Positions 2,807 through 31,724 of a stretch of 64,000 bases of DNA are shown here, one piece after another; positions within the stretch are counted from its first letter, which is position 1; every line of letters begins with the position of its first letter. Under the pieces are notes generated by a model. The model was given only the letters and a program-made list of their open reading frames with translations. It searched no databases and had not been told where the DNA came from. The DNA is taken from contig CP082230.1 of NCBI GenBank assembly GCA_019856515.1, forward strand, positions 1,054,001-1,118,000. The letters run 5' to 3'. The position numbers were made by a program, and so were the translations under genes. This DNA is from Prolixibacteraceae bacterium (GTDB lineage: Bacteria; Bacteroidota; Bacteroidia; Bacteroidales; Prolixibacteraceae).

Positions 2807-5800
2807 TTATTCCTCAATAATTACGCGAAAACCAACATTAAATACTTTCTGCCATGGTTTATAACTTACACGATATGATGATGTTGATTTTGACGATCTA
2901 TCCCTCCAGGAACCTCCTCTTACAACCTTCTCTTTTAAGATGTCTAAGTTATTCCGACCATCTTTTGCAACATAAGGATAGTTCGCATAGTTTGTTCGCG
3001 TCCATTCAGCAACATTTCCATTCATATCATATAGTCGCCAGGGATTAGCTTCATATTTGCCTCCTTTTACCATTAGCATACTTCCATCATCAACAGAATA
3101 TGATCTTGGAATAAAATCATAATATGGTAGTTTCGTGTTATCATCTGTCATTGGTTTTGGATTCACCCCACACACAGCCATATTTCTCAACTGCTTATCC
3201 GCAAGGTTAGCATATTTCTCAAAGTTAGAGTTATAATTCCCAAACCAAAATGCTCTATCTGATCCAGCTCTTGCGGCCCACTCCCACTGAGATTCTGTTG
3301 GAAGAGTTACTTCCTTTCCTATTTTTTTACTAAGTATTTCACAAAACTTCATTGCTTCTTTCCATGACACTCGAATTACAGGTTGGTTTGGCTTATTTGC
3401 ACTATATCCAGCTGTAGTATGATCCTTCCATAATTGTGCAATAAATCTACTATCATGATTTGGGAAAAATGTTTTGAATTGTTCATTAGTAACTTCAAAC
3501 TGTCCCATCCAAAAAGGCTTCTTGATTTTAACAACACTCATTGGTGATTCATCTTGATCTCCATCATCTGATCCCATAACAAAATTCCCTTGAGGTATTA
3601 ATACGAAATTCATTTTTACTCCTGGTGCAATTTCGATCTCTTGCATATTACTAGAATAACTCTCTTGCTTTTTCTGTGCTTCAGTAGAATTAAATGGCCA
3701 ATGTCGGATATGAGATCGGTGATTCTTTTTCTTCTTTAAAGGAGGTGGAACGACTATCGAATCTTTTTCTAAGGAAGACAAATACTCTATATACTTCTCT
3801 GTCTCTTCCTGCCAATCAACACTAATATTATTGTATTTTGACATCAACTCCTGACGTCTTTTGTATTGGTCGACCCCATTATATTTACATGTTTGAAATG
3901 AACCATTATATGGAGCATTAAAATCGATCCATGTGAATAATGTTCGCCATTCCTTATCTGAAAGTGTTACATTGTGATGTCCTTTCTTTAATAATTTCAC
4001 TAACTCACTTGTATTCGCATGATACTCCATTGGGTTCATCGTGTGAATATCAGCTTCAGCACCTTGTCTATTTATATATGGATGTAATGCTAAATAACTT
4101 TTCCCAAAGTGAACCACGTTATCGATAGAAGTATCTTTATAATCAGGAATGTCTTGACTCCCATCATGACAAGCAATACATCGTTTATTCAAAATTGGCT
4201 GGATCTCATATTCAAAAGAGAACGGTCGAACACCTCCGTTTGGGGGGGTAATAATCTTAGGGGATAATTGTGATGCAATCGTATTTTTAGGTATCGCAAT
4301 ACTATTTTGATTTTCATGACACCCAATACAAGACACTATTTCATTAGGCATACCAGTAAGCCAGCTCCTCATTAGTTGTACTGCAGCCCCATTTTCATCT
4401 AAAGGCTGAATAGATATTGGCACATTAGCAGGAATTTTAAACATTACAGAGCCATCTTTTTCTACAGGGACTGTTCCTAAAAGACGTTTGATATCCCAAC
4501 AACTTTGAATACCATGTGCATCAAAATTTGATTTTACATCATTATAAGCAAATTCGTATGCTAGAATCCTTAATCCTTTAATTGTTCCTCTGGGAACGCC
4601 TTGGGTGCCTAAACCTTCATATATATCTTGAATAAATACTGTTGACTCTTTTGATTTAACATCAACTTTTTCTGGAATGATAGGAGGTGTATCTCTTTTT
4701 AAAACTGGGATAACCTCAGTGATTGCTTTACCTTCGACTACTGAAATAGGGGTTATATTATCAAATACATCAACGAGATACAGCCCCCATAAACCATCTG
4801 GGGATAACTTAGCAGTGACTAAGAAATATTTATCATTCAAAGGGTGGGGTTTTAAAAATTGAGGCCATACTCCATCTACAATCTTATCTCCAATCACAGG
4901 TTTCACTGGCTTGTTACGATAAGGGATCTCTTGAATAACACCTTTTTCTTCTTGACGTCCCTTAGTAGGATCAAAAAGCACTAACCGACCTGTTCTTGGC
5001 ACACCATGGTGTCCAGATACCACAGCTACAAACTGACTGTCTCCATTTGGGATTGGCTTCGCGTCAAACATCGTATTGGGCCAGAAAGAGCCACTTCCAT
5101 ATAATTCTTTTTTGGTTGTACCATCTGGATTCATACGCATCATAATTCTCGAGAAATAATGTGTATTATCAGTATACTCCCATCTTAGGTACATGATTTG
5201 TCCATTATTCATCACTTCAGGGCTCCAATCGTTGTCTTGTCCAAAATTGAGACGACGAAGATCATTCGTTTTTGGATCATAAAGACACAGGTTTGCCACA
5301 GGCACAGAGCCACTATTACACGGAACCCCTTGATAACCGATAGTAGATGCTGTAATTATCTTTCCACTCGGAAGATAGGTTGCATCAAAAAAGTCGATAT
5401 CTGGTTCATCAACATGAGTTACTTTATGATTATTACTCCCATCTATATTCACTTCATACAATTGCCATCTCATATTCTTATTGACAGCTGAGTATAATAT
5501 TCTTTTGGCATCCCAATGCAATTGAAGATCCGTTATGGGTGATGTATTGTTCAGATTTAGAATAGTACGATTCTGAACTGTTCCACCTAAATCATATAAT
5601 TCAGAGATTTCACAATCATACCCTGTCCGATGCATATAACCATTTCCTGCAGAATTTTTAAATGGTGTACCTATCTCGCGAGCCATTACTCTTCTTGAAT
5701 TACCTTTAAGGTGATGTGTCACAACAATAACCTTATCCATATCTAATAATGGATTAGCTAAAAGAATACGTCTCTTTCTTTGAAGAATTTGATTGGCAAT

Positions 5801-6772
5801 TGCAATTACTTTTTGATCCTCGAAATAGATGTTTTTCTTCGTAGATTCTAAATGTTTTTTGATAAACAAAAGATCCTTGTTGGCCTGTTCTGTATTAAAC
5901 TGATCATATTGACTCATATTAATAATAGCAAGCTCTATTGCCTCCAAATTTACAATTCTAAGCTCTTCTTCTAATTTAAATACTGACATAATTCGAGTAA
6001 ACAAATTCAGATATTGCTTTTCTTGCTCTTCGATAGAAGACTGTTCAATATTATGAAGTTTTTTCTTGAATAGATTTTTTTTTGTTAATTTATTAACCAA
6101 CCTATTACAGATCTCTTTATAATCATCTAGACAGTTGTTGAATAACCAATAACTTGGATCATGATTAAAATAATTCATCAAGTTGTCTGTTTCTTTTGGG
6201 AAATGACGATATAAGTTTACCATTTCATCCGAAACAGATATATTAGTCACTTCTAACGAAGTAACATTAGTCTTACGGGGCGAACTTTTCTCGATCCCGA
6301 TATCAGCAACAAAAAAACTATATTTATTATCTAAAACTAGTTCAAAATAACCTCTCTCTAAGATCACTATACTATGACTAAATGTAGTCTTGTTTATTTT
6401 AGGAGTTTTATATTTTCTATTTTCATTAAGGTATACCTTAGACTTGTAACCAACATTTATATTCAACTGGTCAATGAATATTTCCTTTCCGTTCTTTGTA
6501 ACTAACTTCGCGTTACCCAATAACAAATCCGTATTTGCATTGTTCTTAAGAACAATTTTATGTCGATTATGAATATCAATCTTTATTTTTTTTGGAGGTT
6601 TATTTTTTTTAATCGGACCAGACTTATATGTCCAAGGTTTAATAGCATTATTTTGCAACCTCTTCTTGGTTGTAATGACATATTCACTCCAACTTTTATT
6701 GCTCTGTCCAAGAGTAGTTAAACAAGGAACAATAAAGATTAATAGAATTGTTGTTAGTTTTATTTTACACAT
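2807..6772 (-). CDS. Exported HzsA-related propeller protein with two CxxCH motifs and a C-terminal SUMF1 domain
   Basis: 1321 residues. A signal peptide (about 1-22) is followed by an uncharacterised N-terminal region (about 23-340) with a lysine-rich helical stretch. A PD40/WD40-like propeller (about 345-685) and a domain resembling the middle domain of hydrazine synthase alpha (about 700-810) come next. Two haem c motifs follow, CIGCH (about 812) and CIACH (about 864). A SUMF1/FGE-sulfatase-fold domain (about 1050-1321) closes the protein (VLIPQGNFVMGS, EVTNEQF, RGGSW, GFRV). The propeller-then-haem order resembles HzsA-type proteins, but nothing here indicates anammox. The SUMF1 domain lacks the paired active-site cysteines of true formylglycine-generating enzyme: the stretch after RGGSW has serines. 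It is therefore probably not a sulfatase activator. It is last in the operon, 8 bases after the propeller gene. The function is unknown. Domain calls are good, the role is inference. Confidence 0.75.
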   Translation of the reverse strand: MCKIKLTTILLIFIVPCLTTLGQSNKSWSEYVITTKKRLQNNAIKPWTYKSGPIKKNKPPKKIKIDIHNRHKIVLKNNANTDLLLGNAKLVTKNGKEIFIDQLNINVGYKSKVYLNENRKYKTPKINKTTFSHSIVILERGYFELVLDNKYSFFVADIGIEKSSPRKTNVTSLEVTNISVSDEMVNLYRHFPKETDNLMNYFNHDPSYWLFNNCLDDYKEICNRLVNKLTKKNLFKKKLHNIEQSSIEEQEKQYLNLFTRIMSVFKLEEELRIVNLEAIELAIINMSQYDQFNTEQANKDLLFIKKHLESTKKNIYFEDQKVIAIANQILQRKRRILLANPLLDMDKVIVVTHHLKGNSRRVMAREIGTPFKNSAGNGYMHRTGYDCEISELYDLGGTVQNRTILNLNNTSPITDLQLHWDAKRILYSAVNKNMRWQLYEVNIDGSNNHKVTHVDEPDIDFFDATYLPSGKIITASTIGYQGVPCNSGSVPVANLCLYDPKTNDLRRLNFGQDNDWSPEVMNNGQIMYLRWEYTDNTHYFSRIMMRMNPDGTTKKELYGSGSFWPNTMFDAKPIPNGDSQFVAVVSGHHGVPRTGRLVLFDPTKGRQEEKGVIQEIPYRNKPVKPVIGDKIVDGVWPQFLKPHPLNDKYFLVTAKLSPDGLWGLYLVDVFDNITPISVVEGKAITEVIPVLKRDTPPIIPEKVDVKSKESTVFIQDIYEGLGTQGVPRGTIKGLRILAYEFAYNDVKSNFDAHGIQSCWDIKRLLGTVPVEKDGSVMFKIPANVPISIQPLDENGAAVQLMRSWLTGMPNEIVSCIGCHENQNSIAIPKNTIASQLSPKIITPPNGGVRPFSFEYEIQPILNKRCIACHDGSQDIPDYKDTSIDNVVHFGKSYLALHPYINRQGAEADIHTMNPMEYHANTSELVKLLKKGHHNVTLSDKEWRTLFTWIDFNAPYNGSFQTCKYNGVDQYKRRQELMSKYNNISVDWQEETEKYIEYLSSLEKDSIVVPPPLKKKKNHRSHIRHWPFNSTEAQKKQESYSSNMQEIEIAPGVKMNFVLIPQGNFVMGSDDGDQDESPMSVVKIKKPFWMGQFEVTNEQFKTFFPNHDSRFIAQLWKDHTTAGYSANKPNQPVIRVSWKEAMKFCEILSKKIGKEVTLPTESQWEWAARAGSDRAFWFGNYNSNFEKYANLADKQLRNMAVCGVNPKPMTDDNTKLPYYDFIPRSYSVDDGSMLMVKGGKYEANPWRLYDMNGNVAEWTRTNYANYPYVAKDGRNNLDILKEKVVRGGSWRDRSSKSTSSYRVSYKPWQKVFNVGFRVIIEE

Positions 6773-6780
6773 AGCTATAA

Positions 6781-7671
6781 CTATCTTATTTTATCCTTAT
6801 CCCATGATGGGTCTAAAGAAGATATTTGTCCAAATTTCTTTTTATCATGTAATTTCCATACAACCTTTTTATGCTTATCAATCTCAACGACCTGGACTTG
6901 ATGCTCTAGACTCTTCGCATGCCCCCCCCAATTACATATAATAGTATTTCCATTCTTTAGCCTTATGGCCTCTGTTACGGATCTAAGTGAGATCCCTTCG
7001 ATATCATTCTCTTTTACCTCCCAAACAATCTGTTTTGTCAATGGGTTAATTTCAATCAGACGATGGCCATCTCCACAAGACACAAGCCAATTATTGTTTT
7101 TCAGTACAACAGTTGCAAAAGGAACTCCCCCAACATAGACTTCATTTATAATAGCCCCCTCTTTATTAAATTCATAAACTGTACGTTTTTTTCTAACTGG
7201 TACAATATATGTCCCCTTTTCTGTTTTTCTCACACGTCTTAATTGAGCATGAGGATTCCTCAGCTTTGTGTCAAAAGACATCTCAAAGATTACTTTTCCC
7301 TTCTTATTAATCTCTAAAACCTTCATTGGAGAGCCACATTGTCCTACCAGATAATTCTCTTCATTGGTTAACGAGATTGACTGTACCTCTGTTCCAATTG
7401 GCGCTTTATAATTCCAAACTACTTGATAATCTTTAGTGATCTCAGCAGCACCTTTTTTATATGAATATAGAATGTTCCCATTATCCAATTCCGAAACGCA
7501 ATTACATTCGTGCCCTTTCTCTAGTTCATAGGTCCATAATATTTTACCTCTTCGTGTTGCTTTTATAATCTTTCGATTTCCAGAACCAGCCATTACTATT
7601 GTTTTGGATTGTGCTCGAATGGTGCCTATAGCAATAAAAAGAATCACAATCCCTTCAAAAATCTTTCTCAT
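6781..7671 (-). CDS. Exported beta-propeller protein (PQQ/arylsulfotransferase-like repeats)
   Basis: 296 residues with a signal peptide (about 1-20, ...GTIRAQ). At least five repeats of the form GKILWTYEL, ..VVWNYKAP, ..NGNTIICNWGG, ..KVVWKLHD mark the tryptophan-containing outer strands of a PQQ-like or arylsulfotransferase-like beta-propeller. Three cysteines sit near ECNC and VGQCG. No catalytic motif stands out, so a binding or scaffold role is as likely as an enzymatic one. It lies between the cupin gene (27-base gap) and the large CxxCH/SUMF1 gene (8-base gap) and is almost certainly co-transcribed with both. All three products are exported, which suggests a joint job in the periplasm or at the cell surface. 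Confidence 0.7.
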   Translation of the reverse strand: MRKIFEGIVILFIAIGTIRAQSKTIVMAGSGNRKIIKATRRGKILWTYELEKGHECNCVSELDNGNILYSYKKGAAEITKDYQVVWNYKAPIGTEVQSISLTNEENYLVGQCGSPMKVLEINKKGKVIFEMSFDTKLRNPHAQLRRVRKTEKGTYIVPVRKKRTVYEFNKEGAIINEVYVGGVPFATVVLKNNNWLVSCGDGHRLIEINPLTKQIVWEVKENDIEGISLRSVTEAIRLKNGNTIICNWGGHAKSLEHQVQVVEIDKHKKVVWKLHDKKKFGQISSLDPSWDKDKIR

Positions 7672-7698
7672 TTAAATTATTTTTATCGTTTAATAGTT

Positions 7699-8379
7699 TT
7701 ATTTGGCTCTATTGAGAAAATATATCCTAGCTTCAAGGTCAGCATGTCTCACTAATGGTGAAGAATGAACATTTGCAACTTCCGACATGATAGCCCCTTC
7801 TTTGCCTGCAAACTGCCAATGAAGAGTTTCTTCTTTAAGTAGTTTAGTAAAATCTCCTGGATATGCGGGATATACATGTTTGGTTTTTGTGGTAGCCTCA
7901 TTATGACAATATGGGATTTTTATATCAGGGAATTTATCGAGATTATCCTTGCCAACACCTACAATATAACTCATGCCATGGCGTATAAACCAACCTTCTA
8001 ATTTTGCTGGCAAATCGTCTCCTTTAAGGTGGCGATGTTCTGGAAGCATTTGACCAGGAAGAAGAAAAATTTCCATTAACATATACTTATCTTCTTGATT
8101 GTTCACAACCATATTGACTGCAATCCCCATTTCAGCAAATCGACCTTCTCCATAGTCACTCACTTTTAATTTTTCTCGAAAATTGGGGTGTATTGGATAA
8201 CCATGATATTTACAAAGTGTAATCACAGCATCTTTTGCCTTTTCTGAGTCGAACTTACCGTTGCTATAGTAATCTTCATTTCTACAGGTAAAAAATTGAT
8301 CCCTTACCTGAGCATACAGATCACAATTACAACAAGCAATAAAAATTAAAATGGATAATCTTAAATACACGTTCTTCAT
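7699..8379 (-). CDS. Exported cupin resembling D-lyxose ketol-isomerase
   Basis: 226 residues. The N-terminus is a signal sequence (about 1-24, ...CDLYAQ). Cysteines in IACCNC make a lipoprotein conceivable, but the lipobox is poor. The core is a cupin barrel: LPGQMLPEHRHLKGDD followed by KLEGW matches the HxH...K..E metal-site pattern of the D-lyxose isomerase group. The later segment LHWQFAGKEGAIMSEVAN resembles their second cupin motif. Known D-lyxose isomerases are cytoplasmic, so export is unusual. It is the first gene of the three-gene operon, divergent from the HTCS across a 527-base gap. It may act on a sugar or be a metal-dependent cupin of other function; the substrate cannot be told from sequence. 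Confidence 0.65.
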   Translation of the reverse strand: MKNVYLRLSILIFIACCNCDLYAQVRDQFFTCRNEDYYSNGKFDSEKAKDAVITLCKYHGYPIHPNFREKLKVSDYGEGRFAEMGIAVNMVVNNQEDKYMLMEIFLLPGQMLPEHRHLKGDDLPAKLEGWFIRHGMSYIVGVGKDNLDKFPDIKIPYCHNEATTKTKHVYPAYPGDFTKLLKEETLHWQFAGKEGAIMSEVANVHSSPLVRHADLEARIYFLNRAK

Positions 8380-8906
8380 TTTATCGTTATTTCGTCGTTT
8401 ATATCTTAATTAAATGAATACAACTTATCATACAGGCAACATGCAATACAAGAATAATAGGATACATGTTTATCTGCCATTACTTTATTCCTATGAAATT
8501 AAATCAAAGAGCATCGAATTAATACTCTATATTTAATCAATAACACTCTTGTAACAAATGCTCCTACATATTAAAATATCAGGCAATAGAACACAAATGA
8601 GAGCTATCCCTATTCATCCTCACTTTAAGGACATTTCATCCCAATCATTCAATAATATAATAGCTCCTTTTGCTCTTAAATATTGACTCATGAAAAGTTC
8701 TATATTATCACAACAGTTTCATATTAATGCGATTAAAACCTAATGAAATGCTATCGCCTTTTCTACAAGTACTAAAATAGAGATCCAGCTCAACACATGC
8801 CGTTGTTTTTATTTCAATGATCACCGTTTTTAATTCATGACTTAAAACCATTTTGTGTTTGAATGAATAATGACTAGTTTCGAGACAATCGATTTAACTA
8901 ACTTAT
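8380..8906. other. Divergent intergenic region between the cupin operon and the HTCS gene
   Basis: 527 bases without an open frame worth calling. It should hold the promoters of both the minus-strand operon and the HTCS gene. A partial match TAGTTTCG near 8875, with TTTG at 8858, lies ahead of the HTCS start. I see no clear operator, RNA gene or terminator. Confidence 0.5.
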
Positions 8907-11900
8907 ATGAGAACATTTCTTTTTGCCTTTCTATTAGTTTTAATCCAGGACCAAGTGATGTCTCAACATCTATATTTTGACCATCTAACTGTTGAATCAG
9001 GACTATCCTCAAATAGAATTTTTAACATCTCACAAGATGATCGTGGTTATATATGGATGGGAACACAAAATGGGCTTAACAGGTATAATGGAAAGGAGTT
9101 CAAACATTTTATCCCAAGAGGTAATAAGCCTGGCTCAATAAAAGGAAATAATGTATTGGGAGTATATTCAGGTAAAAAAGGGAATATATGGGCTGTTACT
9201 AGAAATGGTGGCTTGAACTTTTTCGATGCTCAAAAAGAATCATTCGACCAATTTCCAGACTCAATATTTCCTTGTAGACAAGGATCCATTAAGAATATCA
9301 TTGAAGATGATCATGGAAATATACGATTTACATCTTCAGAAAAGTACTATTACTTTGATATAAAGAACAACCACATAAAACGTATTCTAAAGAGTAAAAA
9401 AGTTATATCACAATTTGAATATTCGACAGATACAATTGTAATTATCACCTCCAAGAGCATACTTTTCTATAACAAAAAAGGTGCGCTGAATAAAAGCATA
9501 AGTTATTACCACAATCAAAACATTATAGCTGCTTATTTATCAAGCAAAAAGAAGATTCATTTACTATCATCCAATGACGTTTCATTATTTGATCCCAAAA
9601 CGAGAACAACAACTCGAATTGTGAAATTTAATTCTAAAAAGCAAAGATGGCGACAAGAGATGTTGTCTAAAAATACAGACTTAGTATTTGATGGCGACAA
9701 CTATTGGATTACATCTAGAGGAAAACTATACTGTATAGACTCAAAAAAACAGGATATTCAAACTATAAATAATACCCCCAATAATAAATTTGATTTTCAT
9801 GGATTCCAAGTTAAACATGTCATGATTGACAAACATAATGATGTTTGGATTGCAACATATAACAACGGTCTAAATATATTCAAACGAAGTAATAATCAAT
9901 TTTACCACTATTACCCTTATAGCAAAATGGTTGGGACGAATAGTATTCCTCTGGTTCGTGCCCTTTGTCAAACAAAAAGTAATCGGATATGGGTTGGTTA
10001 CGAGGATAATGGAATTGGATACTATACTGAAAAAGACAATCAATACATTAACTGTTTTTCGACTGGACAATATATAAAATCCATCAGAGCAATATTTGAA
10101 GATAGTAAAGGAAACCTGTGGATTGGGACAAAAAATGGAATTTATTTAAAAAAGGTTGGCGATAAAACTCCTATTAATTTAAAACATGAATACAATATTC
10201 CTTTCCCTATTGGAATATGGAGTATTAAAGAAGACAAAAAAGGCCATATATGGCTTGGAGGAACAAGTCTTTTATCCATCAACTTAATGGACAAAGAGGT
10301 TACACATTACAATTACAAGTCTAAATCGAACATCGGTATAAGAGACATACTTTTTGATTCGCAATATGTTTGGCTCGCAACAAATTCTAGAGGTGTATTA
10401 CAGTTGAACCTCACGTCACACCCTTCGAGTCTGGAAAACAAAGAAACGATGAAGACTTATGAAGTCTGTGACCAAAAAGTCTTTCATTTAAGCGCTCAAA
10501 AAGATTATATATGGGCAGCAACAGCATCCGGATTATCTAGAATAGATAAAAAGAGTGGTAAGGTTGACAACTTTTATCAAAAAGACGGTTTATCAAACAA
10601 TATAGTCTATGCAACTTATACTGATAAAGATGAGAACCTATGGATTAGTACCGCCCGAGGAATAACATTTCTTGAAACAGAATCAATGCATTTTACGAGC
10701 TACCTTCCCAACCGATTTTTTCTAGATAATGCACAATATATGGATCGGAATGGACGAATATTCTTTGGTGGATATAATGGTTTTATCTCATTTGATCCCT
10801 CAAAGATTCGGGATAACTATTCACAACAACAACCATCTTTTGAAGAAATGTACCTAATAGGCGAAAAGCTTAGATACGATCAAAAAGATAATAATATTCT
10901 ATTAAAGTCTCTTGATCAAGTATCTGAGATTAAGCTTAAACATGATCAAAACACTTTTTCTTTTAAGGTTTTTATTCGTCCGATAACAAATACCACAGCA
11001 TCTTATCGTTATAAACTAGAAGGATTTCAAGACAATTGGGTGAATGCTGATAGGATGGATAACGTCATAAAATTCACTAAGATTCCTCCGGGGTACTACA
11101 AGTTAAGGATTCAAAATAGTCAAACTCTTCACCCAAAAGAGAGACAATTATCCATTATAATAATACCACCATTTTATCGTACTAATTGGTTTTATTTTAT
11201 GGTAATACTCTTAAGTATTTTGTTAATTGTCTCAATTATCAAATATCGTGAATATAAGATTAACCGACACAACATACAATTACAACGAGAGGTTGAAAAT
11301 AAAACATTAGAACTAAAAGATAAAAACATAAAAGTTAACCGACAAAAAGAGGAGATAAAAAATATATCTCATGAATTACATAAAGCAGATCAAGAAAAAC
11401 TTAATTTCTTCACAAATATTTCTCATGAATTAAAAACACCATTATCTCTTATCATCGGACATGTTGATTTTCTAAATAAAGAGGATCAAAACAAATCGGA
11501 TTCACTCGAAGCAATTCAAAGAAATGCAATCCAGCTGATGAACCATGTTGATGACATTGTTGATTTTAAAAAAGCATTTCAAGGAGAATTACAGCTAAAC
11601 TATGCAAATTGTGACTGCATTTATTTAATGAAACAATTAATAGATAACTTTAAATTTAAAGCATCCTTAAAATGGATTCATTTGCAGTTAGACAGCAACA
11701 GTAATGAGTTATTCTTACTTATTGACAAACACAAATTCGAAAAGATTATGACAAATCTTCTTTCTAATGCAATAAAATATACTCCGAACCATGGAAAAGT
11801 CACTGTTTCTATTGTGGAAAATGAAGGAAGTGTAAGGTTTAGATTTATTGATACAGGTTGTGGAATTACAGTAGCAGACAAAGATAAAGTATTTGAACGT

Positions 11901-12923
11901 TATTTCAGATCTGAAACAAATTATGCAAAAGGGCATGGTATGGGGCTTGCAATTGTTAAATCTTTGGTCGATCTACATGGAGGAACAATAACACTAAAAA
12001 GCACTATCGGAGAAGGGAGTTGTTTTACTGTGGAATTATTCAAGAAGGACAAAGAACTAGGGGCCTCGAACAATAATAAAACAAAACTTAACAATATTTA
12101 CTCCCATCCAATAAGGATTGATTCAAATCATATCGTTTCCCCTATGTCACTAATAAAAACAGGGGTACCATCTCTTTTAATTGTTGAAGACAACATTCAA
12201 ATTTCATCTCTATTATGCAAACTATTATCTGAAAATTATTCTATTGAACTTGCAAAGGATGGTAGAGATGCACTTAATAAATTAGAGAATAATGACGTAG
12301 ATTTAATTATTTCGGATATCATGATGCCTAGAATGGATGGAATTAGTCTATGTAGAGCATTAAAGAAAGATCAAAATTTTTCTCATATCCCCATCATACT
12401 ACTTTCAGCCAAGAGTGATGTAGAATCTCAAGTTGAAAGTTTCAAATTAGGGATCAATGACTATATAGAAAAACCATATAACTCTCAATTATTAAAAGCA
12501 AGAGTAGAAGCACTGATTCAAAACAGAAAAAAATTACAAGAAAACCTTTTATCAGAAAAATTCATTGTCAATCATGATAACAATATAGATCTACCAGAAA
12601 AAAAATTTCTTGAAAAAGTCTGGAAAATAACAAATAAGTACTATAGTGATAGTAACTTCTCAATTTCATTTTTGGGAAAAGAAATTGGAATGAGCCAAGC
12701 AACATTTTACAGGAAATTCAAAGGTCTAACGGGACAATCCCCAATTGATTTCTTGAAAAGCTTTAGAATAAAAAAAGCAGAATCATTATTGAAATCACAC
12801 AAACATTCAATATCTGAAGTATGTACGATGGTTGGATACCGTAGTGCATCCCAATTTAGGAAAGCATTTAAAGAGATCTATAACCTAAGCCCCTCAGAGT
12901 ATGCGAAGAACATTGTAATATAA
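8907..12923 (+). CDS. Hybrid two-component system sensor-regulator (HTCS)
   Basis: 1338 residues. Domains in order: signal peptide (about 1-20); two-propeller periplasmic sensor built of repeated IWxGTxxGLxxY/F blades (about 20-650); Y_Y_Y domain (about 680-750); one membrane helix (about 758-780); coiled coil; histidine kinase with H in FFTNISHELKTPL (about 840) and ATPase N box LLSNAIKYTPN; receiver with D in IISDIMMP (about 1136-1137); AraC-type helix-turn-helix (about 1240-1338). HTCS proteins bind oligosaccharides in the periplasm and switch on polysaccharide-utilisation loci. Its nearest partner is the divergent cupin operon. The nearest SusCD locus is 13-21 kb away and has no regulator of its own. 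The target operon is inferred, not shown. Confidence 0.93.
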   Translation: MRTFLFAFLLVLIQDQVMSQHLYFDHLTVESGLSSNRIFNISQDDRGYIWMGTQNGLNRYNGKEFKHFIPRGNKPGSIKGNNVLGVYSGKKGNIWAVTRNGGLNFFDAQKESFDQFPDSIFPCRQGSIKNIIEDDHGNIRFTSSEKYYYFDIKNNHIKRILKSKKVISQFEYSTDTIVIITSKSILFYNKKGALNKSISYYHNQNIIAAYLSSKKKIHLLSSNDVSLFDPKTRTTTRIVKFNSKKQRWRQEMLSKNTDLVFDGDNYWITSRGKLYCIDSKKQDIQTINNTPNNKFDFHGFQVKHVMIDKHNDVWIATYNNGLNIFKRSNNQFYHYYPYSKMVGTNSIPLVRALCQTKSNRIWVGYEDNGIGYYTEKDNQYINCFSTGQYIKSIRAIFEDSKGNLWIGTKNGIYLKKVGDKTPINLKHEYNIPFPIGIWSIKEDKKGHIWLGGTSLLSINLMDKEVTHYNYKSKSNIGIRDILFDSQYVWLATNSRGVLQLNLTSHPSSLENKETMKTYEVCDQKVFHLSAQKDYIWAATASGLSRIDKKSGKVDNFYQKDGLSNNIVYATYTDKDENLWISTARGITFLETESMHFTSYLPNRFFLDNAQYMDRNGRIFFGGYNGFISFDPSKIRDNYSQQQPSFEEMYLIGEKLRYDQKDNNILLKSLDQVSEIKLKHDQNTFSFKVFIRPITNTTASYRYKLEGFQDNWVNADRMDNVIKFTKIPPGYYKLRIQNSQTLHPKERQLSIIIIPPFYRTNWFYFMVILLSILLIVSIIKYREYKINRHNIQLQREVENKTLELKDKNIKVNRQKEEIKNISHELHKADQEKLNFFTNISHELKTPLSLIIGHVDFLNKEDQNKSDSLEAIQRNAIQLMNHVDDIVDFKKAFQGELQLNYANCDCIYLMKQLIDNFKFKASLKWIHLQLDSNSNELFLLIDKHKFEKIMTNLLSNAIKYTPNHGKVTVSIVENEGSVRFRFIDTGCGITVADKDKVFERYFRSETNYAKGHGMGLAIVKSLVDLHGGTITLKSTIGEGSCFTVELFKKDKELGASNNNKTKLNNIYSHPIRIDSNHIVSPMSLIKTGVPSLLIVEDNIQISSLLCKLLSENYSIELAKDGRDALNKLENNDVDLIISDIMMPRMDGISLCRALKKDQNFSHIPIILLSAKSDVESQVESFKLGINDYIEKPYNSQLLKARVEALIQNRKKLQENLLSEKFIVNHDNNIDLPEKKFLEKVWKITNKYYSDSNFSISFLGKEIGMSQATFYRKFKGLTGQSPIDFLKSFRIKKAESLLKSHKHSISEVCTMVGYRSASQFRKAFKEIYNLSPSEYAKNIVI

Positions 12924-13890: not shown

Positions 13891-15240
13891 CAATACTTCG
13901 GTAGTTTTCCATATAAACAACTAATAGTCAGTTGTTTATCAGTTGAATTATTTTGTTGTATCATTAATTTTCAGTATCTTATATATGTGTAAATTACAAT
14001 ATTTAAGTTGACTACTGATGAAAAAAACGATATATAAGGAATGTATTTCTAGAACACTCTCCAAGATGTCAGATATTGGTTTGGCAAGACGTAATTTTAT
14101 GATTGAGACAATTTATTTATTCTTAAGTATTATGGGAAAAATAAACTTTTTACAGTTGTCTCGTTATGGATCTAAAAATGAAAAAACTTATAGGAATCAA
14201 TTTGAAAAACGTTTTGACTTTCTGAATTTTAACTATTATCTACTTGAAGAAAATAAGTGTTCTGAATATGTTATAGCTTTTGATCCTTCATACATCAATA
14301 AGTCTGGCAAACGTACTGCAGGAATGGATGTGTTCTGGTCAGGGTGTGCAGGAAAGGCCAAACGAGGATTAGAGATTGGAGGTATTGCAGCAGTAGATGT
14401 TGTTAAAAACACAGCCTTTCATCTTGAAGCTGTTCAAACAATACCCAAGCCAAAGCAGAATCTAAATGACTGGTATATTAGTGTGATGACTGAAAGGATA
14501 TCATCGCTTAAAAAGATATCTAAATATCTTGTTGTAGATGCGTGGTTTTCAAATAGAAAGTTCATAACTAACATGATAGAACATGAAGTAAATGTTGTGT
14601 CTCGTCTTCGTTGTAATGCTCATCTTAAATATTATTATACGGGATCAAAGACTGGTAAAAGAGGGAGACCTAGAGTGTATGGTGATAAAGTAAACTGTAA
14701 AGAGATTGATGAAAAATACTTTGATTTGGTAGAGGAAACAGAAACTTATACCTTATATTCAGCTGTTGTATATTCGATTTCATTGAAGAGAAAAATACGT
14801 CTTGCTTATTATCAATCTTTAAATGGTAAAGGGAAAACGGATTACAAAATGTATTTCTCTACAGACATTAATTTAGAGCCAACAAAGATATATGATTATT
14901 ACAAGAAGCGTTTCCAAATAGAATTTATATACAGAGATGCAAAGCAATACACCGGATTGAATGATTGTCAGGCTCAAAGTGAAAACAAACTCCACTTTCA
15001 CTTTAATATGTCTATGACATCAGTGAATATAGCTAAGATAGCTGATTGGCTAGATCAAGAGAGTATACAGCAATCCCCTTTTTCATTGAACAACATCAAG
15101 AAGCTGAATTTTAATGAGTTAATGCTAAATGTGTTTTTATCTAAAATTGGGGTAAATACTAACTTGCAGAAAATACAGAAAGTGATAAAAAAGATCCGAT
15201 TATATGGGACAAATGCCGCCTAAAAACTCCCGAAGTATTG
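13891..15240 (+). mobile_element. Complete IS4-family insertion sequence, 1350 bp, with 6-bp target duplication
   Basis: The left end CAATACTTCGGTAGTTTT (13891-13908) is repeated inverted at the right end (15223-15240) with one mismatch in 18. The element is bordered on both sides by TTAACT (13885-13890 and 15241-15246), a 6-bp target duplication. One intact transposase fills it, and its stop codon TAA (15221-15223) touches the right inverted repeat. The precise ends and the duplication indicate recent, simple transposition. Confidence 0.9.
14018..15223 (+). CDS. IS4-family DDE transposase
   Basis: 401 residues. The diagnostic IS4 signature Y-(2)-R-(3)-E-(6)-K is complete in YKKRFQIEFIYRDAK (about 296-310). 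The two preceding aspartates of the triad are likely those in IAFDPSYI (about 91) and LVVDAWFSN (about 175). The length fits the family, and the frame is intact from the ATG, 127 bases inside the left end, to the right inverted repeat. It catalyses excision and insertion of its own element. Nothing else is carried by the element. The insertion lies between genes and does not visibly break one. Confidence 0.93.
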   Translation: MKKTIYKECISRTLSKMSDIGLARRNFMIETIYLFLSIMGKINFLQLSRYGSKNEKTYRNQFEKRFDFLNFNYYLLEENKCSEYVIAFDPSYINKSGKRTAGMDVFWSGCAGKAKRGLEIGGIAAVDVVKNTAFHLEAVQTIPKPKQNLNDWYISVMTERISSLKKISKYLVVDAWFSNRKFITNMIEHEVNVVSRLRCNAHLKYYYTGSKTGKRGRPRVYGDKVNCKEIDEKYFDLVEETETYTLYSAVVYSISLKRKIRLAYYQSLNGKGKTDYKMYFSTDINLEPTKIYDYYKKRFQIEFIYRDAKQYTGLNDCQAQSENKLHFHFNMSMTSVNIAKIADWLDQESIQQSPFSLNNIKKLNFNELMLNVFLSKIGVNTNLQKIQKVIKKIRLYGTNAA

Positions 15241-22585: not shown

Positions 22586-23986
22586 ATGAAACAATCAATT
22601 TTACTTCTAATGTTCTTATGGACTAGTGCAATTTATGCACAGTCCTTAAAAATTCCTCAGATAATTGGTTCCAACATGGTCCTGCAAAGAAACGATACCG
22701 TGAAGATATGGGGATGGTCTACTCCAGAAAAGAAGATTCGTATTAAAACTTCTTGGAATAAAAAAAGCTATACAACATATGCTAACGGTAAAGGAAAGTG
22801 GACTGTAAGTGTCGTTACTACTCAAGCAGGAGGACCTTATCAATTAGAAGTTAAATCGGCGAATGAAAAACAACTATTCAAGAATATTTTATTAGGTGAG
22901 GTTTGGTTATTTTCAGGACAATCGAACATGAACTTCAATCTAAAAGGAAGTTATGGAAGCTATCCACTAGAGAGAGACCAGATTTTATTGGCTTCAAACC
23001 AATCCAAAATTAGAATATTTGATGTTGATCGTAAAGTCAGTCTAGTCCCATCTGACACTCTACTATCAAAAGAAAAATGGGAAATTTCCACTCCTCAAAA
23101 TGCAGCCAATACAAGTGCTATCGCATATATGTTTGCACTACAACTTCATCAAACACTTAATGTTCCTATTGGTATTATTCACACCTCCTATGGGGGAAGC
23201 TACATCTCAGCGTGGTTAAGTAAAGAGACGTTGAAAAAATACAATCAATACGATCTAAAGAATCTAAAGTACACTAAGTGGAACAATGATATTCCATCAG
23301 CAATATATAATGCAATGTTAAAACCATTAGCTCCATATGGGATTAAAGGTGCACTTTGGTATCAAGGGGAATCTGACAGAAAAACACCACAATTATATAT
23401 TCAACAGTATCAAGACTTAGCAAATGATTGGCGTTCTATATTTCAACAAGATTTCCCAATATATATGGCACAAATTGCACCTTTTGGATATAAACCGCCA
23501 TCACAATCTCAGTATATCAGGGAAGCGCAAATCAAAGCAGCAAATATGATCTCCCAAGGAGGCATTGTGATTACAAGTGATGTAGGAGAAAAAGGGAATA
23601 TACACCCACATAAGAAAAAACCTATTGCTGATCGTTTCTTGAGACTAGCTTTAAACCAAGCATATGGTATGACAGCCATAGATGCATCTAGCCCAAGATA
23701 TGAAACCCATAAGATTGATGAAAATAAAATTGTTCTACAATTTAAGGATGCAAATGAAGGTTTACATTGTAATGATAAAGATCTAAAATATTTTGAAATA
23801 GCAGGCATAAATAAGAAATTCTACCCTGCCAAAGCAAAGATCGTTGGTCGAAATAAAATTGAAGTATCTTCAAAAAATGTTACACAACCTATTGCTGTAA
23901 GATATGGATGGAGAAATTTCTTTATTGGTAATATCTATGATTCGCACGATCTTCCTCTATCTTCTTTTCGTACAGATAAGTGGTAG
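22586..23986 (+). CDS. Sialate O-acetylesterase-like exported carbohydrate esterase
   Basis: 466 residues with a signal peptide (about 1-19, ...IYAQ). The SGNH/SASA-type catalytic features are visible: nucleophile serine in LFSGQSNMNF (about 114-119), the GALWYQGESD block (about 253-262), and the late Asp/His pair in SDVGEKGNIHPHKK (about 331-344). An N-terminal beta-domain (about 20-100) precedes the catalytic fold. The family removes O-acetyl groups from sialic acid or, more widely, from plant and algal glycans; the substrate here is unknown. The sulfatase gene follows 80 bases downstream on the same strand and is probably co-transcribed. Together they would remove acetyl and sulfate groups before glycosidases act. 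Confidence 0.85.
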   Translation: MKQSILLLMFLWTSAIYAQSLKIPQIIGSNMVLQRNDTVKIWGWSTPEKKIRIKTSWNKKSYTTYANGKGKWTVSVVTTQAGGPYQLEVKSANEKQLFKNILLGEVWLFSGQSNMNFNLKGSYGSYPLERDQILLASNQSKIRIFDVDRKVSLVPSDTLLSKEKWEISTPQNAANTSAIAYMFALQLHQTLNVPIGIIHTSYGGSYISAWLSKETLKKYNQYDLKNLKYTKWNNDIPSAIYNAMLKPLAPYGIKGALWYQGESDRKTPQLYIQQYQDLANDWRSIFQQDFPIYMAQIAPFGYKPPSQSQYIREAQIKAANMISQGGIVITSDVGEKGNIHPHKKKPIADRFLRLALNQAYGMTAIDASSPRYETHKIDENKIVLQFKDANEGLHCNDKDLKYFEIAGINKKFYPAKAKIVGRNKIEVSSKNVTQPIAVRYGWRNFFIGNIYDSHDLPLSSFRTDKW

Positions 23987-24066
23987 TCCATCAAAAAAAA
24001 ATTACTCACTAAAAACTCAAGATTCTTTAGAGAGTAAATTATCTAACAACTTTTCATTTAAACAAG

Positions 24067-25626
24067 ATGAATTTTAAACACACAACGAAAGTCCTTACCC
24101 TAGCTCTTCTTGCCTCCTCGCAATTAGTCCAAGCTAAGAAAACATCAAAAAAATTGCAACCCAATATTGTCGTATTCATGGTGGATGACATGGGGTGGCA
24201 AGATACATCTCTACCATTTTGGAATAAAGAAACATATCTCAACAAACAGTTTCACACTCCCAACATGGAGAAATTAGCATCAGAGGGGATGATGTTTACA
24301 CAAGCTTATGCATGTGCCATATGCTCTCCCACTAGAGTGAGTCTTATGACTGGAATGAATGCGGCAAGACATAGAGTGACCAATTGGACACTATACAAAG
24401 ATAAGATGAACCAGGGGTCACCTAAAGGACTAAAAATACCTGAATGGAATTATAATGGTGTCGGGGTGGATCAAGCTGTATCTCACACAGCATACACTCC
24501 TCAACCTCTTCCAAAAGTCCTTCAGGACAATGGTTATTACACAATTCATTGCGGAAAAGCGCATTTCGGTGCCATTGGAACTCCTACCGAAGATCCTCGA
24601 TCACTTGGGTTTGATGTGAATATTGCAGGACATGCTGCAGGAGGGCCTGCTTCATATTTAGGGAGCGATAATTTTGCTAAACCCCAAAAGAAAAATTCTA
24701 TTTGGAACATACCTGGTTTAGAAGAATTTCATGGGAAAGATATCTTTCTAACAGAAGCATTAACACAAAAAGCTCTTCAAGTAGTTACAGACTCTGTTCC
24801 TTCTCAGAAACCATTCTTTCTTTACATGGCACATTATGCAGTTCATTCACCTATTATGGGAGACGATCGTTTCGTTCAGAAATACATTGATCAAGGATTA
24901 AGCCCAATAGAAGCAAAATATGCATCCATGGTTGAAGGAATGGACAAAAGTTTAGGAGATATAATGTACTATCTCAAAAAGAATAATTTAGAGAAAAACA
25001 CAGTTATTCTTTTCATGTCTGACAATGGTGGCCTAAGTGCATTAGCCCGTGGAGGATTAGCTCATACCCACAACTATCCTCTATCTAGTGGTAAAGGTTC
25101 AATTAGAGAAGGGGGAATTAGAGAACCAATGATTGTAAAATGGCCACAAGTAGTAAAACCTAATACTAAATGTGATGACTATGTCATTATTGAAGATTTC
25201 TTTCCAACCATACTTGAAATAGCTCAGGTCAAAGAGCTCCCAAATAAGCACCAGCCGATTGATGGAAAATCTTTCACACCACTCTTAGAAGGACAAAAAA
25301 ACATCAATAACAAACGACCTATATTTTGGCACTCACCTAATTTCTGGGGGCCATCTGGACCGGGTATATCTTTCTATAGTGCCATAAGAGAAGGGGATTG
25401 GAAATTAATATACTACCATACCAATCAAAAATTTGAATTATTCAATATCAAAGAAGATATTGGCGAACACTACAACCTAGCATGCCAACAAAAAGACAGA
25501 ACAAAACAATTGGCAAAAAAGCTTTCTGATTATCTACGAGAGGTAAAAGCCCAACTGCCTATCATTGCAAAAACAGGAGAAAAAGTCCCATTGCCAGATG
25601 AAATAGAAATCATAGAAGAGCCCTAA
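24067..25626 (+). CDS. Exported S1-family sulfatase
   Basis: 519 residues with a signal peptide (about 1-23, ...LVQAK). The metal site is in FMVDDMGWQD. The sulfatase signature CSPTR (C86), within CAICSPTRVSLMTG, provides the cysteine that must be converted to formylglycine. DNGG later in the chain supplies further metal ligands. The C-terminal part (AIREGDWKLIYYH) is the usual sulfatase small domain. Because the modified residue is a cysteine, a maturation enzyme is needed. None is in this window: the SUMF1 domain at 2807 lacks the catalytic cysteines. It probably desulfates a polysaccharide imported or bound by the convergent SusCD pair. Confidence 0.93.
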   Translation: MNFKHTTKVLTLALLASSQLVQAKKTSKKLQPNIVVFMVDDMGWQDTSLPFWNKETYLNKQFHTPNMEKLASEGMMFTQAYACAICSPTRVSLMTGMNAARHRVTNWTLYKDKMNQGSPKGLKIPEWNYNGVGVDQAVSHTAYTPQPLPKVLQDNGYYTIHCGKAHFGAIGTPTEDPRSLGFDVNIAGHAAGGPASYLGSDNFAKPQKKNSIWNIPGLEEFHGKDIFLTEALTQKALQVVTDSVPSQKPFFLYMAHYAVHSPIMGDDRFVQKYIDQGLSPIEAKYASMVEGMDKSLGDIMYYLKKNNLEKNTVILFMSDNGGLSALARGGLAHTHNYPLSSGKGSIREGGIREPMIVKWPQVVKPNTKCDDYVIIEDFFPTILEIAQVKELPNKHQPIDGKSFTPLLEGQKNINNKRPIFWHSPNFWGPSGPGISFYSAIREGDWKLIYYHTNQKFELFNIKEDIGEHYNLACQQKDRTKQLAKKLSDYLREVKAQLPIIAKTGEKVPLPDEIEIIEEP

Positions 25627-25654
25627 TAGATAGATAGGATTTAGATTGATATCA

Positions 25655-25690
25655 TGCAAGGAACATTCTTATGTAAGAATGCTCCTTGCA
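25655..25690. terminator. Strong bidirectional terminator between sulfatase and susD
   Basis: TGCAAGGAACATTCTTA pairs with TAAGAATGCTCCTTGCA: 17-bp arms with one mismatch and a 2-base loop. A short T run (TATTTTG) follows on the plus strand. It separates the convergent sulfatase (+) and SusD (-) genes. Confidence 0.8.
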
Positions 25691-25706
25691 TATTTTGAAA
25701 CTCCAA

Positions 25707-27239
25707 TTATTTTAAATTAGGATTTATATTAACCTCATTAGATGGTATTGGCCAATATTCATATGAAGAATTGTAATTTAATCCTGCATCTACAAGATCA
25801 TTTAACTCCCCCCATCTTTTCAAATCTCCCCAACGATGTCCTTCAAAAAGAAGCTCGACTCTACGATCTTTCTTAATCTGAACTAATAATGCATCTGCAT
25901 CACTATCTGAGATACCGTCCATTGTTAAGCCAGCTCTATCTCTAATTTTCTTCAACTCTGTCCAAGCCTCTGCAGTCTTTCCAGGAATCATTGCTAAAGC
26001 TTCCGCTCGATTAAGAATTACTTCAGCATATCTTATTACAGGAACATTGATAGCTGATCCCACCGAAAAATACTTTCCTCCTGCTCTCCAATACGCTGGA
26101 TCATGATAAAGAAACTTACGCATTTGCAATGCCCCTTTTTCTTTTAAATCAGCTCTAAAATCTTTGTACAAATCAAAATCAGGAAAAACACTTGTCTTAT
26201 TGAATTCAGGATAATTGATCTTGTCTACCCCTGCAATAAGAATTGAGCCCTGCCTACGAATATCATCTTTTTCAAATATATCTAAAATATCATATACCTT
26301 ATTTCCATTTTCATCATTTACTTTTCTAGGGCGTAGATATTGCCCCCAAGAGATACGTGGCCATATATGTTGTAGAATAGTTGTCTCAGCAGATTCTGCA
26401 CTCCAATATTTACCTTTACCACCGACAAACTGTACTTCAAAAATAGACTCATTACTATTCTGTTTCATTCCATCAAACATATGTACAAAATCGTTAGAAT
26501 CAACCAAGCTGTAACCAAGTTTCTCTACTTCTGTTGCTGCTTCTGCTGCACCTTTATAATCTTTAGTCCATAAACGAATACGACTTAATAATCCATATGC
26601 TGCACCTTTAGTTACCCTTCCTACTTCAGATTTACCATAACTAACAGGTAATTTTAGTGCTGCATTTAAAAGATCTTTATCTAACTGACTCCAAATCTCA
26701 TTAGAAGCTGTTTTCTTGATTGTGTTTGCCTTCTCAGGGGCTAACACAGTTGTTGGAAAAGGGACATCTCCAAAGCCACTAACAAGGTTAAAATAGAATA
26801 ACGATCTTAAAAACAACACCTCTCCGATATATCGATCTTTCATATCTGGAGACAGATCACCTGCATTATCAATATTATCTAAAACATAATTTGCTCTTAC
26901 AATTCCTTTATAACAAGCATTCCATCTGCTACCAAAATATTGGTTGGTATTCTTCCATCGGAAATAATGAATTGAGACTAAATCTGGACCAAAACCACCA
27001 TCACCCCATGGATTATAAATATTATCAGTAGGAGCTTCTCCAAGCACAATGAATGACCAACTATAAAGTCCTCCATAGCTTAAAGGATCATAAACAGCTG
27101 TTACAGCATCACCGACCTGACTAGCATACTTCATGAATGTACCTGAATTTTGTCCATTCATATCAGTCTTATTTAAGACATCATCACACCCATATAATGT
27201 AATGAGTGCTACTATATATAAAATTATATTTTTCTTCAT
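25707..27239 (-). CDS. susD: SusD/RagB-type surface glycan-binding lipoprotein
   Basis: 510 residues. The lipoprotein signal (residues 1-18) ends in LYGC, followed by DD, a pattern compatible with export to the cell surface. The alpha-helical TPR-like core and the C-terminal block RRVELLFEGHRWGDLKRWGEL are diagnostic of the RagB/SusD family. It caps the SusC barrel and delivers oligosaccharide to it. It lies 12 bases downstream of susC, so the two form one transcript. No other gene of the locus is on this strand, so this is a minimal susCD pair facing the esterase-sulfatase pair. Confidence 0.95.
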   Translation of the reverse strand: MKKNIILYIVALITLYGCDDVLNKTDMNGQNSGTFMKYASQVGDAVTAVYDPLSYGGLYSWSFIVLGEAPTDNIYNPWGDGGFGPDLVSIHYFRWKNTNQYFGSRWNACYKGIVRANYVLDNIDNAGDLSPDMKDRYIGEVLFLRSLFYFNLVSGFGDVPFPTTVLAPEKANTIKKTASNEIWSQLDKDLLNAALKLPVSYGKSEVGRVTKGAAYGLLSRIRLWTKDYKGAAEAATEVEKLGYSLVDSNDFVHMFDGMKQNSNESIFEVQFVGGKGKYWSAESAETTILQHIWPRISWGQYLRPRKVNDENGNKVYDILDIFEKDDIRRQGSILIAGVDKINYPEFNKTSVFPDFDLYKDFRADLKEKGALQMRKFLYHDPAYWRAGGKYFSVGSAINVPVIRYAEVILNRAEALAMIPGKTAEAWTELKKIRDRAGLTMDGISDSDADALLVQIKKDRRVELLFEGHRWGDLKRWGELNDLVDAGLNYNSSYEYWPIPSNEVNINPNLK

Positions 27240-27251
27240 CTTTTTTTACTT

Positions 27252-30323: not shown

Positions 30324-30487
30324 TTTATATTAGTTTTCAACGTTAGTCAGCAATAGGTGGCAAGTAGAAAGTACATATAAACTAATTTGACATCTATACC
30401 CATGTCAAAAATGATGTCCCATCTTTACAAAACAGCTCCTATTGCATTGTTTGATCGACCAAAATTGTTCATTATTAAATTGTCATT

Positions 30488-30545
30488 GTAACTGAAATCA
30501 ACCATTTAAGTAACATCAAAGTAACCTTATTTACATCTATGTAAC
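30488..30545. promoter_or_regulatory. Phased GTAAC repeats upstream of susC
   Basis: GTAAC occurs at 30488, 30510, 30521 and 30541. The spacings of 22, 11 and 20 bases place them on nearly the same face of the helix, 165-220 bases before the susC ATG. This could be a binding array for a regulator such as the HTCS. The pattern is seen; the role is inference. Confidence 0.3.
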
Positions 30546-31378: not shown

Positions 31379-31531
31379 AACAAGCTACTATCCTCAGTCT
31401 TTCTACTGAGATTGCTCGAAATTCATTCAAAGTTCATTCGAAGATCATTCATCGATTTTTCATTTTGGGTGAGGGATCTTCGCATGAACTTTAAATGATA
31501 CCCCAAAGAAGGCAGAGGATAGTAGCATGTT
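31379..31531. repeat. MITE-like 153-bp inverted-repeat element with an inner 11-bp tandem repeat
   Basis: ACAAGCTACTATCCTC (31380-31395) is repeated inverted at 31515-31530 with one mismatch, and one more base pair extends it. Inside lie three 11-bp units: AAATTCATTCA, AAGTTCATTCG, AAGATCATTCA (31419-31451). No target duplication is evident, so it may be a structured repeat and not a transposable element. Confidence 0.5.
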
Positions 31532-31616
31532 ATTCAGGGAAAGGTTACTTTAAAGGGCTCAACTCTTTGATATATTGCTATTTTAAATTCAAACTCGTTA
31601 TAGACAAAATAAAAAT

Positions 31617-31647: not shown

Positions 31648-31724
31648 AATGAATAACACCTATACTGAAAACTATCTCATATAGAGAAATGAGTATTACC
31701 TCATATTTGGTTTGATATATGCTA

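Follow-up and report, generated by a model that had tools for sequence, protein, structure and literature searches.

The 64,000-nucleotide window analysed here (contig CP082230.1, positions 1,054,001 to 1,118,000; G000:C1:1054001-1118000 in our numbering) comes from the 5.19 Mb single-contig genome of a Prolixibacteraceae bacterium and contains an operon of three genes, encoding a D-lyxose-isomerase-like cupin, a beta-propeller and a 1321-residue protein. Judged by its sequence, the latter is an HzsA-like protein, a relative of the alpha subunit of hydrazine synthase (HZS), with two sites of the haem c type. We propose, with a probability of roughly 0.55, that the operon is a satellite, glycan-inducible alpha set for a periplasmic HZS-like c-haem complex acting on sugar. 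An additional function of the HZS type of architecture in carbohydrate metabolism is probable, because the same genes adjoin sugar-breakdown enzymes in other Bacteroidales. The features of the locus are the following.

7699..8379, minus strand: exported cupin resembling D-lyxose/D-mannose isomerases, with an intact EHxH...E...H metal site (sequence match and alignment)
6781..7671, minus strand: exported beta-propeller, PF22701 Mala_s_1-like, relative of PDB 3no2
2807..6772, minus strand: HzsA-like exported di-haem alpha protein with C-terminal SUMF1 fusion
4613..5785, minus strand: propeller region of alpha, about residues 330-720, boundary approximate (weak, individually non-significant pieces against 5c2v_A)
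4313..4588, minus strand: HZS_alpha middle domain PF18582, residues 729-820 (Pfam)
4316..4330, minus strand: CxxCH motif of the haem alpha-I type, CIGCH, residues 815-819
4166..4180, minus strand: CxxCH motif of the haem alpha-II type, CIACH, residues 865-869
3977..3979, minus strand: His932, invariant and a possible distal ligand of haem alpha-II; His772, which has this role in HzsA, aligns one residue further on
2819..3607, minus strand: SUMF1 domain, residues 1056-1318, in which the paired cysteines of formylglycine-generating enzyme (FGE) are missing
8380..8906, no strand: divergent intergenic region between the cupin gene and the hybrid two-component system (HTCS) gene, presumed control region
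8907..12923, plus strand: HTCS that presumably regulates the operon in response to sugar (Pfam domains)

The three open reading frames (ORFs) lie in a row, separated by 27 and 8 bases, and encode proteins of 226, 296 and 1321 amino acids (aa), each with a hydrophobic signal-like stretch at the N-terminus by direct reading of the sequence. The original prediction, made from this DNA alone, had described three tightly spaced genes for exported proteins divergent from an HTCS, and this description held. There are 527 bases between the HTCS and the cupin start, and the HTCS carries Reg_prop, Y_Y_Y, HisKA, HATPase, Response_reg and AraC HTH domains (Pfam). One promoter pattern, which we take to be of the Bacteroidota type, had no match in 8380-8906; the window contained 6 matches against 3.15 expected.

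The large protein matched PF18582 (HZS_alpha) with E 1.5e-34 and PF03781 (SUMF1) with E 2.2e-39. A profile of 19 sequences (the window protein included) over residues 330-960 retrieved a single PDB protein at E<=0.001, the hydrazine synthase alpha chain 5c2v_A (E 2e-16); the alignment was significant within the middle domain and within the C-terminal one. When SUMF1-less relatives were included, a profile of the C-terminal half reached 5c2v_A with E 1e-20, and both CxxCH motifs aligned to the haem alpha-I and alpha-II motifs of HzsA. The HzsA-like middle domain, the two haem-type motifs and the SUMF1 domain, all proposed beforehand for this protein, were recovered. One relative (P0189) is already named 'HzsA-related protein' by NCBI, and the alpha protein is present in the isolates Bacteroides sp. 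HPS0048 and Carboxylicivirga sediminis.

The two CxxCH motifs were invariant across 44 aligned alphas, satellite copies included. From the 56 alpha-like ORFs examined, four pieces without CxxCH and L116, with three motifs, were left out; the 51 others all contained two motifs at a spacing of 47-53 residues (exactly 50 in 40 of the 51), and the pair is therefore not due to chance. L116:2-1450 encodes a partial, HZS-alpha-like protein just upstream of an alpha-betagamma pair. In G059 the alpha (L062:8538-12596) consists of two ORFs with the break at about residue 708, the second with its own signal-like start, which is either a natural split or a lesion. His932 was invariant as well, in the distant forms and in all 44 aligned alphas, and in the profile alignment HzsA chain residue H745 (His772 by our offset) fell one residue after it. 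The window alpha has an Asn at His+4 of the first CxxCH, where HzsA has Tyr591, the proximal residue of haem alpha-I according to PMC12758564 and PMC12607021; the latter also supplied the HZS haem roles used here for comparison. Within the eight residues after the first CxxCH, Tyr was absent in 50 of the 51 alphas. The NCBIfam cut-off for hydrazine synthase was missed by the window alpha (58.6 against 800).

Outside the HZS-like part, NPCBM domains were found in 4 and F5/8C domains in 6 of the 19 alphas; in L009 the NPCBM domain covers residues 103-183. The catalytic cysteine pair of FGE, which we take to lie after the GGS motif, is missing from the SUMF1 domain of the window protein, and one Cys is present there in 3 of the 44 alphas (the window protein among the 44). 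Sulfatase maturation by this domain was ruled out by the missing cysteines.

The window genome encodes three full-length alphas, two of them in addition to that of the operon. The alpha at 1131-1135 kb belongs to a core locus with the order IclR, HzsBC-like, propeller, alpha. Its HzsBC-like gene (G000:C1:1136090-1137865, 592 aa) is a fused beta-gamma, the single match in the genome, which starts 74 kb beyond the window cupin and consists of a propeller plus a di-haem domain of the cytochrome c peroxidase (CCP)/MauG type. A profile of five beta-gamma proteins matched both partner chains of PDB 5c2v in the fused order, HzsB with E 2e-33 and HzsC with E 2e-26. In the same search the surface-layer propeller 1l0q (E 2e-35) stood slightly above HzsB, and the next-best di-haem peroxidase, 6e1c (E 1e-8), stood far below HzsC. 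The top NCBIfam match of the L117 beta-gamma was the HZS beta-gamma fusion, at a score below the cut-off (78.7 against 1250). At the position of gamma-His144 the 35 aligned beta-gammas have Ile (31), Val (2), Ala (1) or Thr (1), never His or Trp. Gamma-Cys165, which in HZS provides a third haem thioether, falls in an alignment gap; in the beta-gamma of the window genome, Cys is absent from the stretch between residues 432 and 511, where some Cys occurs in 17 of the 35. Longer, distant HzsBC-like proteins of about 675 aa were seen beside weakly alpha-like propeller proteins in another family of the phylum (L066:1270-3306 and L067:1474-3489).

Co-occurrence was scored in an even sample of the order (393 genomes; E<=1e-100 for alpha and beta-gamma). 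Beta-gamma was present in 19 genomes and alpha in 15; all 15 alpha genomes contained beta-gamma, against 4 of the 378 without alpha (Fisher p=8e-24, related genomes treated as independent). In these four (G013, G683, G693 and G695) an HzsA-like protein without the SUMF1 motif adjoins the beta-gamma (L122, L125, L126 and L127). Beta-gamma was also found in a further 4 of 4 Bacteroidales alpha genomes, in one of them as a fragment of 130 residues where the contig ends. With the fused partner in 19 of the 19 Bacteroidales alpha genomes checked (the fragment included), the three-gene unit as a complete system was ruled out. In the phylum-wide sample beta-gamma occurred in 4 of 395 genomes at E<=1e-60, two of them distant. 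Among 20 genomes reached via further loci, with titles from Bacteroidota, Planctomycetota, Kiritimatiellota, Verrucomicrobiota and Lentisphaerota, 19 contained beta-gamma; the exception was G822, the metagenome-assembled genome (MAG) of L018.

The cupin family gave 13 strong and 4 weak matches in the 393 genomes, the weak ones (under 93 bits; G058, G482, G658 and G796) being scored as absent. Twelve of the 13 strong matches were in alpha genomes (12/15 versus 1/378; Fisher p=2e-19, again with related genomes treated as independent). Alpha and beta-gamma lay in one fetched locus in 9 of the 15 alpha genomes and on different contigs in G658; five, on short contigs, were not judged. The three genes had been presented as a joint unit, for which a gene-neighbourhood comparison was proposed as a check. 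The families do recur together in Bacteroidales outside this genome; the unit proved to be larger, including the fused HzsB-HzsC-like di-haem protein that is absent from the window locus.

Neighbouring genes in the other genomes were labelled by best phmmer matches to a few queries, and Pfam and NCBIfam were applied to some of the cluster genes. The L111 cluster comprises IclR, HzsBC, a Rid/FkbO-like protein, cupin, alpha, CcsBA, a 104-aa protein, DhaK, DhaL, LsrF and propeller (we label proteins of 104-108 aa without a Pfam match VOC108). Variants of it occur in other Bacteroidales (L113, L114, L117, L108 and L062), and all six loci have DhaK, DhaL and LsrF in one cluster with HzsBC. Two Alistipes MAG loci (L014 and L015) contain IclR, alpha, HzsBC, a Rid/FkbO-like protein, cupin, DhaK and DhaL and no CcsBA. 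Two loci from cecum MAGs (L009 and L010) contain GH36, cupin, alpha, CcsBA and HzsBC, and neither DhaK nor LsrF was seen in the part that was fetched; in L009 the GH36 gene is upstream of the cupin. In G019 the genes are dispersed, with IclR-HzsBC in L142, cupin-VOC108-DhaK-DhaL-LsrF-propeller in L143 and four alphas elsewhere. LsrF of L117 scored above the NCBIfam equivalog cut-off (466.8 against 297). DhaK of L117 scored below its cut-off (277 against 406) and may therefore act on a substrate other than dihydroxyacetone. CcsBA is the assembly protein of system II cytochrome-c biogenesis; because it adjoins alpha in seven loci (L009, L010 as two ORFs, L110, L111, L113, L114 and L117), haem loading is supported. 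The window genome encodes its own CcsA (PF01578).

These clusters, with IclR, CcsBA, kinase and thiolase, indicate that the three-gene set was incomplete as first proposed, and their neighbours support the link to sugar metabolism that came with it. The association with an HTCS stood for the window and for some satellite alphas (L058 and L060); an HTCS gene is also found beside an alpha-betagamma pair in L144. The HTCS lies outside the conserved core, and since the core operon has IclR instead, the HTCS was rejected as a constant component. A second pair type, with a SUMF1-less HzsA-like protein, HzsBC and propeller, was observed in L124:6993-11350, L125:8829-13108 and L144:9787-14560. In L124 and L144 it is accompanied by FGGY-, DeoC- and alcohol-dehydrogenase-like genes (both DeoC labels and the FGGY label of L144 were read from sequence, not from a family search), and the L144 pair is divergent from the HTCS-like gene.

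Alphas without an adjacent beta-gamma differed in their surroundings from those with one. SusC, sulfatase or HTCS genes were present within 6 kb in 8 of the 12 solo loci and in 1 of the 15 adjacent loci, in a comparison that was devised after the loci had been seen and that covered Bacteroidales loci with fetched flanks. The short contigs L043, L047, L048 and L051 and the non-Bacteroidales loci stood outside it. L106 and L110 (contig-end splits) and L121 (ordinary kinase/regulator) were dropped before the test; with these kept in, the counts were 9/15 versus 1/15. The difference stayed with L055, whose contig ends just upstream of alpha, removed and with the window removed (p=0.0008 and 0.0017); the window locus is one of the solo loci with such genes, its HTCS being the sole gene of this kind. 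A tree of 59 alphas, made by a quick method, placed the six other alphas of the window genus on a fully supported branch with the window protein outside it. The window alpha grouped with P0122, P0123, P0124 and P0128 at a support of 81, which is not strong; P0123 and P0124 are from Carboxylicivirga. The data suggest that the alphas P0122, P0123, P0124 and P0127 are on the same contigs as the beta-gammas P0018, P0007, P0009/P0021 and P0006. DDE-type transposase genes flank the cluster and its HTCS at 2118-2645 and 14018-15223 (both plus strand), and lateral arrival of the island between them is possible. The tree, the solo position and the flanking transposases suggest that the window locus is a separately acquired alpha set.

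The cupin was confirmed as D-lyxose-isomerase-like by its matches to the D-lyxose/mannose isomerases 2y0o (E 2e-13) and 7nzo (E 3e-12) in the PDB, and it missed the Pfam gathering score of PF07385 (Lyx_isomer; 13.6 against 20.8 bits). The metal-binding EHxH, Glu and distal His are conserved with respect to both structures, and H115, H117, E128 and H187 were invariant in 14 cupins. Twelve of these 14 have a signal-like N-terminus, mostly with a lipoprotein-type Cys, the exceptions being L010 and L117 as called. The window cupin was the sole family match found in its genome (7 of 29 first-look candidates scored). The middle gene had been read as a PQQ-like propeller, which the searches contradicted: PF22701 (Mala_s_1-like) matched with E 6.4e-47 and PDB 3no2 with E 4.8e-68, and PQQ_2 appeared only below its cut-off. 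A pyrroloquinoline quinone enzyme was thereby ruled out for this gene. A propeller gene lies directly upstream of all three alpha paralogues of the window genome, and is lipoprotein-like in the paralogues.

Taken together, the window operon would serve as a source of components, probably induced by glycans, for an HZS-like complex in the periplasm. Alpha would consist of a propeller, a middle domain with haem I and a C-terminal domain with haem II, extended by an N-terminus of carbohydrate-binding type and a SUMF1 cap. Its partner would be the single fused beta-gamma from the core operon IclR-betagamma-propeller-alpha, and cytochrome-c assembly would proceed via the CcsBA of the genome itself. 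Outside the cytoplasm, the cupin may convert a released sugar from aldose to ketose or back; docking or holding the complex may fall to the separate propeller, and alpha/beta-gamma would perform a redox or rearrangement step on the sugar. In species with the full cluster, a cytoplasmic DhaK/DhaL-type kinase and an LsrF-type thiolase would convert the product to dihydroxyacetone phosphate (DHAP) and acetyl-CoA. Because DhaK/DhaL with LsrF would give DHAP and acetyl-CoA, the product may be a five-carbon deoxy-dicarbonyl resembling 4,5-dihydroxy-2,3-pentanedione/autoinducer-2 (DPD/AI-2). This hint derives from the thiolase reaction of LsrF and is also drawn from the FGGY kinases and DeoC-like ORFs that adjoin SUMF1-less alpha-betagamma pairs (L124 and L144). 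The protein families, the order of the HzsA-, HzsB- and HzsC-like regions, the haem motifs, the co-occurrence and the gene context come directly from the computations, and from them we infer that a complex forms and is loaded with haem, where it is located, and what its substrate and chemistry are. A bolder version seems doubtful to us: that in Bacteroidales a non-anammox HZS branch is a periplasmic sugar enzyme, in which the exported isomerase feeds a complex of four haems, two of them active and linked by a tunnel, giving an AI-2/DPD-type deoxy-dicarbonyl that passes to the DhaK/DhaL-type kinase and LsrF, and in which exchangeable alphas borne on polysaccharide utilisation loci (PULs) give a shared beta-gamma core its glycan specificity.

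Several observations weigh against a sugar-acting complex supplied by the window operon. Hydrazine synthase alpha has a six-bladed propeller at its N-terminus; the propeller pieces of the window alpha align to 5c2v_A in the right order and are individually not significant, and the NPCBM match of the window alpha stays below its cut-off (16.2 against 23.9 bits). The beta-gamma gene is absent from the window locus, and joint action with the copy 74 kb away is our supposition. A strong cupin match is lacking in the alpha genomes G002, G686 and G658 (weak in the last). No DhaK or LsrF match was obtained in 4 of 4 genomes of the window genus (one of them 77% complete), and the downstream steps therefore cannot be the same there. 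No transporter was seen among the recurring cluster genes.

The homology to all three HZS subunits could instead point to nitrogen chemistry, with the complex acting on NO, hydroxylamine or an amine (HZS-like, detoxifying, or in oxidative amino-sugar deamination) and the sugar genes being secondary. The Rid/FkbO superfamily includes imine deaminases, and a Rid/FkbO-like protein is present in eight clusters (L105, L107, L108, L109, L111, L113, L115 and L117), in favour of this alternative. We nevertheless regard it as unlikely, in view of the Tyr missing after the first CxxCH in all alphas except one, the Ile that mostly replaces gamma-His144, the gap at gamma-Cys165, the NCBIfam scores of both subunits, and neighbours that are kinases, aldolases and SusC/sulfatase genes. 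Since the equivalents of Tyr591 and gamma-His144 are absent, gamma-Cys165 is uncertain and the NCBIfam cut-offs are missed, hydrazine is presumably not a product and the protein should not be filed as a hydrazine synthase. These points lower the case for its being HZS, not for its being built like HZS.

It is also conceivable, and in our estimate improbable, that the window copy is a non-enzymatic satellite for glycan binding or anchoring, made up of an N-terminus like a carbohydrate-binding module, propellers and a SUMF1 fold, with haems that only carry electrons or are vestigial. This would agree with the SUMF1 domain without FGE cysteines, the NPCBM and F5/8C domains of relatives and the SusC, sulfatase and HTCS genes around solo alphas; against it speak the complete metal site of the cupin and the retention, in 44 of 44 alphas (satellites included), of both haem motifs and the possible distal His. 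That unrelated exported proteins became accidental neighbours near mobile elements could be argued from the transposase genes on either side. This explanation is disfavoured and hardly credible, as two or three of the families occur together in L059, L062, L108, L111, L113, L114, L119 and L143 and the cupin and alpha co-occur far beyond chance.

HZS was long thought to be without relatives, and distant ones of unknown function were reported recently (PMC12758564). The same paper describes four clades (I-IV) of homologues outside anammox, from Planctomycetota, Desulfobacterota and others, in which alpha and a fused beta-gamma are co-located, and reports beta-gamma homologues in Bacteroidota. 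With anammox HZS (HzsA/B/C, 5C2V) the Bacteroidales proteins share the arrangement of alpha, in which a putative propeller region comes before the HZS_alpha middle domain and the two motifs for haem c; they differ in the extra N-terminal and SUMF1 domains of alpha, the sugar-gene neighbourhood and the lack of Tyr591 and gamma-His144 equivalents. The joining of the beta-gamma propeller to a di-haem CCP-type domain resembles the fused HZS form of Scalindua, and the co-located pairs without key HZS residues resemble clades I-IV, both as given in PMC12758564. According to that paper, clade I alphas lack His772, whereas the Bacteroidales alphas have an invariant His one residue away, and clades I-III have Trp at gamma-His144, where the Bacteroidales beta-gammas have mostly Ile. 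The main text of PMC12758564 contains none of the words SUMF1, formylglycine, sugar and LsrF, and our literature searches found no description of a SUMF1-fused, sugar-linked HZS-like cluster. The claim that no such pathway had been described therefore stands, as far as these searches go, for the combination and falls for HZS-like pairs outside anammox, which are already known.

Likenesses to other systems are partial. The full clusters share with Lsr (AI-2) catabolism an LsrF-type gene (the L117 copy was tested and is above the equivalog cut-off), but their kinase is of the DhaK/DhaL type and not LsrK, no Lsr transporter was seen, and there was no match in the window genus. The cupin core aligns with D-lyxose/D-mannose isomerases including the metal-binding His/Glu pattern, although these cupins mostly have a signal-like stretch and the window cupin is below the PF07385 cut-off. 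As in HTCS-controlled PULs, the HTCS is divergent from the operon, and elsewhere SusC/D and sulfatase genes are the neighbours of several satellite alphas, whereas the window operon itself is without SusC/D or glycosidase genes.

The nearest SusC/D genes in the window are at 25707-30323, past the transposase and other genes. They belong to a PUL-like stretch separate from the operon, at 22586-39609, with a SASA esterase, sulfatase, SusD, SusC, alpha-2-macroglobulin and GH20, whose substrates may be amino-sugar glycans that are sulfated and acetylated. Pyruvate-formate-lyase, activase and YeiH/TauE genes (window 40607-43692 and 49875-52576) are situated between the satellite locus and the HZS-like core. 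Similar-looking ORFs adjoin the core locus in G002 (L056:239-5713), and the region seems syntenic.

The recurring cluster of haem assembly, isomerase, kinase and thiolase genes gives the HZS architecture a concrete functional context. It bears on the origin of hydrazine synthase and hints that carbohydrate use includes an as yet unknown step that involves haem in the periplasm, and the named isolates that contain the alpha protein make the question accessible at the bench.

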